64,000 nucleotides of DNA from Terriglobia bacterium (GTDB lineage: Bacteria > Acidobacteriota > Terriglobia > UBA7540), in NCBI GenBank assembly GCA_035712365.1, contig DASTAW010000040.1, positions 1 through 64,000 of the forward strand, written 5' to 3'. The notes below the pieces were generated by a model. That model made no database searches. It saw only the letters and a program-made list of their open reading frames with translations, and was not told the DNA's origin. Shown here piece after piece: positions 192 to 59,025 of this stretch (position 1 is the stretch's first letter; each line of letters begins with the position of its first letter). A program made the position numbers and the translations under genes.

Positions 192-220
192 TTGACAACT
201 CTGGCCTAGTGTAGTAGTCT
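192..220 (+). promoter_or_regulatory. Sigma70-like promoter upstream of A-rich element copy 1
   Basis: TTGACA (192-197), a 17-base spacer, then TAGTCT (215-220). The spacer contains CTGGCCTAGTGT. The same hexamers, spacer length and spacer core recur in inverse orientation at 58997-59025, beside the second element copy. Conservation of the spacer as well as the hexamers is more than an ordinary promoter needs. It reads into the repeat at 293-579. Confidence 0.5.
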
Positions 221-292
221 TGCCGTTGGGCGCTAGGACCGGTGCGCCAGGCAAAATGACAACCGTTAGACAGTACGATCCATCCGGGGGCG

Positions 293-579
293 AAAAGGCT
301 AGTTTCCTGGCTTTTTGGGGAAAATGGGACAGAAAAAGGTGTTATTTTGAAAAACAAACCGGAGAAGCTTCTGAAAACAAAAAATCTGAACCCAAAAACA
401 AACCGGGACGAACCGGAAAACAAAGCGGAGAAGTTATTGAAAATACGTTCCTGTGGAAAAAACGAACCGGAACGAACCGGAAAACGAAGCTACCGATGTC
501 GCTGAAAACACACGACAGCAGAAAATGCCGCCCAGGCTACATGCTCGGGCTAAATTCAGGAGCAAAAGGGCTAGTTTCC
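293..579 (+). repeat. A-rich three-unit repeat element, copy 1
   Basis: Three imperfect tandem units, each with AAAACAAACCGG or AAAACGAACCGG near its start and a GAAAACA-like end, follow a conserved lead-in (CTGGCTTTTTGGGG, then AAAATGGGAC). The block is bracketed by a direct repeat, AAAAGGCTAGTTTCC at 293-307 and AAAAGGGCTAGTTTCC at 564-579. The same three units in the same order occur inverted at 58593-58866. The downstream flank meets the pgm stop codon at 582-584. Frames are open because the strand is poor in T. Comparing the two copies codon by codon in the open frame, I count 3 silent and 9 replacement differences, which argues against a conserved peptide. Identity as a mobile or RNA element is inference. 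Confidence 0.65.
452..460 (-). promoter_or_regulatory. DnaA-box-like nonamer in element copy 1
   Basis: TTTTCCACA on the minus strand fits the DnaA-box consensus TTWTNCACA exactly. It lies between units 2 and 3 of the element and is kept in copy 2 (58704-58712). There is no dnaA or dnaN gene nearby, so this is not offered as oriC. DnaA binding is untested. Confidence 0.3.
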
Positions 580-58592: not shown

Positions 58593-58866
58593 CCAGTTAA
58601 CTAGCCATTCCAGATGCCTGCGCCGCCGCTTGTGTGAGATTTCCGCCTTCACGTGTTTTCAACAAGATGGCCCGGTTCGTTTTCGGTTCGTTTCCGGTTT
58701 GTTTTTTCCACAGGTACGTGTTTTCAACAACTTCTCCGCTTTGTTTTCCGGTTTGTTCCGGTTTGTTTTTGGGGCCCGATCCTTTGTTTTCAACAACCTC
58801 TCCGGTTTGTTTTTGCAAAATAACATTTTTTTGTCCCATTTTTCCCCAAAAGCCAGTAACCTAGCC
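58593..58866 (-). repeat. A-rich three-unit repeat element, copy 2
   Basis: Minus-strand equivalent of 293-579. Three units ending in TTGTTGAAAACA, each beginning AAAACAAACCGG, after the conserved CTGGCTTTTGGGG and AAAAATGGGAC. Bracketed by direct repeats CCAGTTAACTAGCC (58593-58606) and CCAGTAACCTAGCC (58853-58866), 12 of 14 matching. The left boundary abuts the RHS remnant. Confidence 0.65.
58704..58712 (+). promoter_or_regulatory. DnaA-box-like nonamer in element copy 2
   Basis: TTTTCCACA, an exact fit to TTWTNCACA at the same place in the element as 452-460. DnaA binding is untested. Confidence 0.3.
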
Positions 58867-58996
58867 CATCCCCGGGATGTTGCACGAAGCGCAGACGGCG
58901 GGAATTTCCGGCGCCTCTCCGCCCCAGACAGGTCCCGAAGAAGCGCCCAAAAGGGGCCGGAACAGCCGGCGGATTTCTCCGCAAGTCCACCCCTTA

Positions 58997-59025
58997 AGGC
59001 TATCACACTAGGCCAGCTTTGTCAA
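58997..59025 (-). promoter_or_regulatory. Sigma70-like promoter upstream of A-rich element copy 2
   Basis: On the minus strand TTGACA (59025-59020), 17-base spacer with CTGGCCTAGTGT, TAGCCT (59002-58997). Reads toward the element, 130 bp away, against about 75 bp in copy 1. Confidence 0.5.

Follow-up and report, generated by a model that had tools for sequence, protein, structure and literature searches.

Promoter-carrying interspersed repeat elements in a Terriglobia bacterium and their linkage to a gene for an STGPRT-motif protein

The window, i.e., the whole stretch of 64,000 nucleotides analysed here, carries two inverted copies of an A-rich, three-unit element, which raises the question of what this element is, whether it has further copies and how these came to be dispersed. 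The initial annotation located the copies at 293–579 (plus strand) and 58593–58866 (minus strand), with a lead-in and three units in matching order, and this is borne out by a local alignment score of 334 (27–50 for 20 base-shuffled controls) and a core identity of 83–85%. The shared region exceeds the limits first given, both copies having a promoter block about 110–170 bp further upstream. Below, G000 designates the genome of the window, G001 and G002 its sister species, and G014 and G016 other genera of the same family; all genomes compared are drafts, and several element copies sit at contig ends.

Anatomy of the two window copies

The features of the two copies are the following:

192..220, plus: copy 1 promoter, TTGACA, 17-bp spacer with GGCCTAG, TAGTCT (TTGACA-N17-TAGTCT)
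221..324, plus: copy 1 type-D leader, alignable only with L002, L004, L006, L009 and L003
298..303, plus: copy 1 5′ direct repeat GGCTAG (TTTCCTGGCTTTTT), kept in 10/10 type-D copies of three species
325..350, plus: copy 1 core, TGGGACA followed by the A-run/T-run hairpin
351..510, plus: copy 1 array of three units, CRAACCGG sub-repeats between 14-mers
365-378, 432-445 and 497-510, plus: copy 1 14-mers, consensus AGTTRTTGAAAAYA
569..574, plus: copy 1 3′ direct repeat GGCTAG
58997..59025, minus: copy 2 promoter, TTGACA-N17-TAGCCT
58839..58996, minus: copy 2 type-D leader, with GGCTAG at 58866-58861
58654..58838, minus: copy 2 core, hairpin and three units
58798-58785, 58732-58719 and 58667-58654, minus: copy 2 14-mers
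58601..58606, minus: copy 2 3′ direct repeat GGCTAG

Both copies belong to the type D subfamily, leaders across the family falling into types A to D and ranging from 35 to 250 bp. The order of the modules is the same in nearly every copy with upstream sequence: a sigma70-type promoter, a subfamily leader, an A/T hairpin and the units. In G000, the promoter that precedes nearly all such copies follows the pattern GATTTTGCTTGAC-N-GGCYAG-N-TGGTAGYCT, and this block recurs neither elsewhere in the window nor elsewhere in the 40 G000 loci. The core starts with TGGGACA and carries an A-run/T-run hairpin, after which come the units; these are directly repeated, about 65 bp long and based on AGTTRTTGAAAAYA, and they contain CRAACCGG sub-repeats. 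At the equivalent position, the G016 copies have a hairpin made of CAAAACATC..TTTTTTTG or ACCCCC..GGGGGT. The element had been described as not protein-like, which holds for solo arrays, where all three frames are broken at points differing from copy to copy and the length of the hairpin varies by one base, but the core has a sequence, TGGGACAAAAAAACACGTTTTTTGA, that matches the final codons of a gene where copies bear one.

The direct repeat GGCTAGKTT said to bracket each array proved accurate in its first part, GGCTAG flanking both arrays, but its “KTT” part is not exact, since the fourth site (58606, minus strand) reads GGCTAGTTA. The accompanying proposal of target-site duplications is refuted. 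Indeed, each of the ten type-D copies (three species) has GGCTAGNNNNCTGGCTTTT upstream of the core, with a 3′ GGCTAG partner 230–255 bp downstream in eight of them; because the NNNN of GGCTAGNNNNCTGGCTTTT-type repeats is rarely identical between the two sides of one copy, the repeats are conserved parts of this subfamily of elements. When all subfamilies are considered, 46 of 86 copies have a motif of the GGCTAG/TAGCC type after the array, versus 84 of 2135 background windows (4%).

Other sequences recur next to the elements. Just upstream of the promoter, a sequence end, CGGAACTTTCTACTTTGCTCATACCGGAACTTCTCACTTTGCAGCGACA, abuts the element at an identical position in L004, L011, L014, L016, L027, L030 and L039, and several contigs stop at CGGAACTTTCTACTTTGCTCATACCGGAACTTCTCACTTTGCAGCGACA, which is possibly the end of an insertion sequence. 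A second dispersed repeat, composed of a palindrome GGCTTCAGCCGCTGAAGC and a tandem TCCTGACTTCTGGCTCCTGA, is located 100–300 bp upstream of the promoter in many elements (L010, L012, L013, L020, L034, L038, L040 and others), while, at the tolerance used, the window contains neither part. Finally, G002 leaders such as L076 feature a tandem TGGGACAAA, the inverse of which (GTCCCA) is found upstream of the STGPRT gene introduced below.

Distribution of the family and known repeat systems

A search for further copies recovered a family of 40 dispersed copies in G000, far more than chance would give (E 1e-14 or better; 76–87% identity or shorter pieces), along with more in related genomes: at least 39 copies in G002, at least 17 in G001, and diverged sets of their own in G014 and G016, with module order unchanged. 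The shortest segment common to all sets is the 14-mer AGTTRTTGAAAAYA. Exact occurrences amount to 10–48 per genome in most examined genomes of the family (none for the reversed control) and to 0–7 per genome in other families of the class. A phylum-wide search with a 24-mer pattern returned a single match, adjoining a DnaA-like gene. Among viral contigs, there were nine exact two-motif matches, most of them unlike the repeat family. Two predicted phage contigs (L331 at 14131 and L337 at 67) have AAGTTGTTGAAAACAAAGGGGTTA between repeats of TTGTTAGAGCCAGGT, an arrangement that perhaps corresponds to cassette or recombination sites.

The view that the element belongs to no known insertion sequence, gene or named RNA family still stands after these searches. 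Rfam yielded no match for the elements, with none in the window and nothing near the gathering threshold for four loci searched at E up to 1, so that membership of an Rfam family was rejected, and a literature search found no description of this repeat family. No reverse transcriptase, as would be expected of a retron, was noticed beside those copies whose neighbourhood was inspected.

Comparison of occupied and empty sites, advised in the initial annotation, revealed both kinds. For about 20 copies in G000, one flank, mostly the downstream one, is conserved next to a G002 copy. Other copies are specific to a lineage: the aroE–mscS spacer is occupied in G000 (L011), but both G002 and G001 have a short spacer there that is devoid of the element, and the flank of window copy 2 on the leuA side likewise has no element in these two species.

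Several described systems resemble these elements in part. As with REPIN/RAYT (PMC3116915, PMC8049555), there are dozens of intergenic, non-autonomous copies, vertical inheritance and one related gene per genome; however, the units, about 65 bp in length, are repeated directly, with no paired REP palindromes or REP hairpin pair in the alignments, each copy has a promoter, and the linked STGPRT protein matches neither a Y1/HUH transposase nor, convincingly, any fold. The BOX elements of Streptococcus pneumoniae (PMC3049150) are likewise modular, intergenic, variable in the number of central units and probably non-autonomous, but the likeness is one of analogous modularity, and BOX differs in that the elements studied here have their own conserved sigma70-type promoter, a linked protein gene and related units across a bacterial class. 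MITEs share with them internal-deletion derivatives of a longer gene-bearing unit, present in several copies (L086, L088), whereas the terminal inverted repeats, target-site duplications and transposase of MITEs and insertion sequences were not found. Multi-site sponge RNAs of the CsrB/RsmZ type also align a short motif in tandem in one putative transcript, but the present family has about 40 loci, a different motif and no known binding partner.

The STGPRT gene and the duplication of gene-array units

In five genomes from at least three lineages, the array begins at, or within, the 3′ end of an ORF with the motif RRNAxKSTGPRTxxGKxxxxLNxLKxG (L035/L223 in G000, L092/L222 in G002, L104/L221 in G001, L224/L254 in G016 and L251 in FK_Sedi_B_Bin.4), and the linkage is looser in G151 and G003. 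In these gene-bearing copies, the core region (325..350 in copy 1) corresponds to the last codons and the stop of the STGPRT gene. The array-linked gene has a full-length match at one place each in G000 and G002, and is a single-copy subfamily in G000, while G001 has one intact copy and fragments.

The partner protein, whose STGPRT motif is basic, has no significant match in Pfam (Y1_Tnp included), NCBIfam, PHROGs, PADLOC or PDB. Its AlphaFold2 model is all-helical (mean pLDDT 79, pTM 0.44), and fold comparison returned nothing above background for helical bundles, a missing match being no proof of absence. The wider protein family, which features an N-terminal NRRNAxKSTGPRTxxGK and is mostly arrayless, occurs in Acidobacteriota, Planctomycetota, Zixiibacteriota, Chloroflexota and others (L251–L330), and a Pfam scan of ten of its members gave no significant match.

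Gene-plus-array units duplicate. In G002, L086 and L088 are 95% identical over 662 bp and represent a gene-array unit with an internal deletion of the gene; as the deletion junction is identical at the two loci (HLTPRQ joined to AMEHDV) and the flanks are unrelated, it is the deleted form that was duplicated. Their boundaries revealed neither a transposase nor terminal inverted repeats or a target-site duplication. A second such pair, beginning at the promoter, is found in G001 (L067 and L105).

Hence the reading that we prefer, with a probability of about 0.5: non-autonomous, promoter-carrying interspersed elements comparable to REPIN or BOX, which would be related to the STGPRT gene-array unit but lack its gene, and whose units would be read in trans. 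Each element looks like a small transcription unit, composed of a sigma70-type promoter, a leader, an A/T hairpin and tandem units, and solo elements look like gene-less derivatives of the gene-array unit. Judging from sequence, the array would be transcribed into RNA from the promoter of the element itself. Copies would arise through rare duplication, in which a host or insertion-sequence enzyme may take part, and a trans-acting factor, the first candidate for which is the STGPRT protein, would recognise the units and hold all copies to one dialect. Against this reading are the lack of a transposase, of terminal inverted repeats and of target-site duplications, an STGPRT fold without convincing match, element sets in which the gene was not detected (G014, despite about 38 exact 14-mers, and G373, see below) and the many homologues devoid of an array.

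Long-lived families of interspersed repeats are considered scarce in bacterial genomes, and the best known of them rely on a tyrosine transposase. The present elements would add a repeat family with its own promoter and a different partner gene, the product of which has no recognisable transposase fold.

Concerted change of a repeat base and alternative explanations

Arrays of orthologous G000–G002 pairs are no more similar (identity 0.769) than non-orthologous arrays across species (0.779), while paralogues within a genome reach 0.797–0.829. When G001 is compared to G000 and G002 together, only four of 213 columns differ in a majority base that reaches 80% or more on each side; each of these columns holds the base that follows CRAACC or AAGC, which changed from G to C in G001. 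Among the 14 G001 copies on which this near-fixed change is based, seven have only AACCC[AG], five have both forms and two only AACCGG, the latter being the sole form in 39 of 40 copies in G000 and 34 of 36 in G002. If entire copies had been replaced, many columns, and not just one sub-repeat position, would be fixed; such a change at orthologous loci fits better with co-evolution with one trans-acting reader. With one repeat base switched genome-wide in G001, co-evolution between the repeats and their reader can be tested directly. A more specific proposal, which we hold only tentatively and consider rather doubtful, is a two-part system where the orphan helical STGPRT protein would read promoter-driven arrays (as RNA or DNA), the recognised base would shift in nearly all copies in concert with the protein and copies would slowly multiply as gene-less derivatives.

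A first alternative, which we consider unlikely, is that the copies are functional small RNA genes under selection, whose transcribed arrays would titrate an RNA-binding protein in the manner of CsrB. This would account for the conservation of the promoter at nearly every copy, for a G016 hairpin that is kept in position while its sequence is unrelated, for the coordinated motif change, and for arrays that can be aligned across species, which is not the case of the remaining intergenic DNA. However, orthologous copies are not individually conserved, copy number is variable, with sites gained or lost, and RNAalifold predicts a strong hairpin from 16 G016 copies but no base pair changed on both sides. 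Moreover, the units do not carry the CsrA core ANGGA: on inspection, their core is CCGGA/GCGGA, and a CsrA sponge was rejected by motif.

All G000 copies are intergenic with respect to called genes, the array of L035 overlapping the end of the STGPRT gene. As a second alternative, they might be cis-acting promoter or leader modules that drive or insulate the downstream gene. In agreement with this, the downstream gene is co-directional with the element in about 26 copies and opposed in nine, and downstream genes, albeit diverse, include many with housekeeping functions. Yet about a quarter of the copies, both window copies included, face the end of a convergent gene, and where flanks are conserved on both sides (L013/L071, L017/L122), a further conserved promoter, belonging to the downstream gene, lies past the element. 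We consider a cis role improbable.

It is slightly less probable still that the arrays are binding sites for a chromosome or nucleoid protein at the DNA level, the promoter being incidental. Enrichment of the 14-mer extends over the whole class, the control being zero, the 14-mer also lies beside tRNA-Ala and rnpB-like sequences, and the one-base change in nearly all G001 copies resembles a binding-site dialect, but the joint copying of promoter, leader and hairpin with the array would be left unexplained. An IHF site was rejected on inspection: the IHF consensus leaves four bases free and these are conserved in the units, so that the resemblance is only partial. Lastly, a CRISPR-like or guide-RNA array is barely conceivable, for although a motif is repeated at 25–60 nt separation and G016 spacers are partly variable, the repeats are imperfect, the intervening segments are common to loci and species, and the linked protein has no match to a known effector family.

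Related sequences were also observed in other families of the class. A genome of another family (G373, contig C1) has a related element in seven copies (L161, L178, L128, L190–L193), in which a promoter-like block precedes a 14-mer unit, in many cases with a terminator-like hairpin in between, the STGPRT gene being undetected. Elsewhere in the class, the 14-mer directly adjoins a tRNA-Ala gene and sequences resembling pieces of tRNA (L187 at 4958 in G193 C31; L175 at 502; L160 at 1500). On contig C4 of G193 (L185, at 2365 and 4045), it adjoins a stretch with the appearance of the antisense of the 3′ end of rnpB; this stretch and the adjoining 14-mer are present twice, about 1.7 kb apart, like the flanks of an integrated element.
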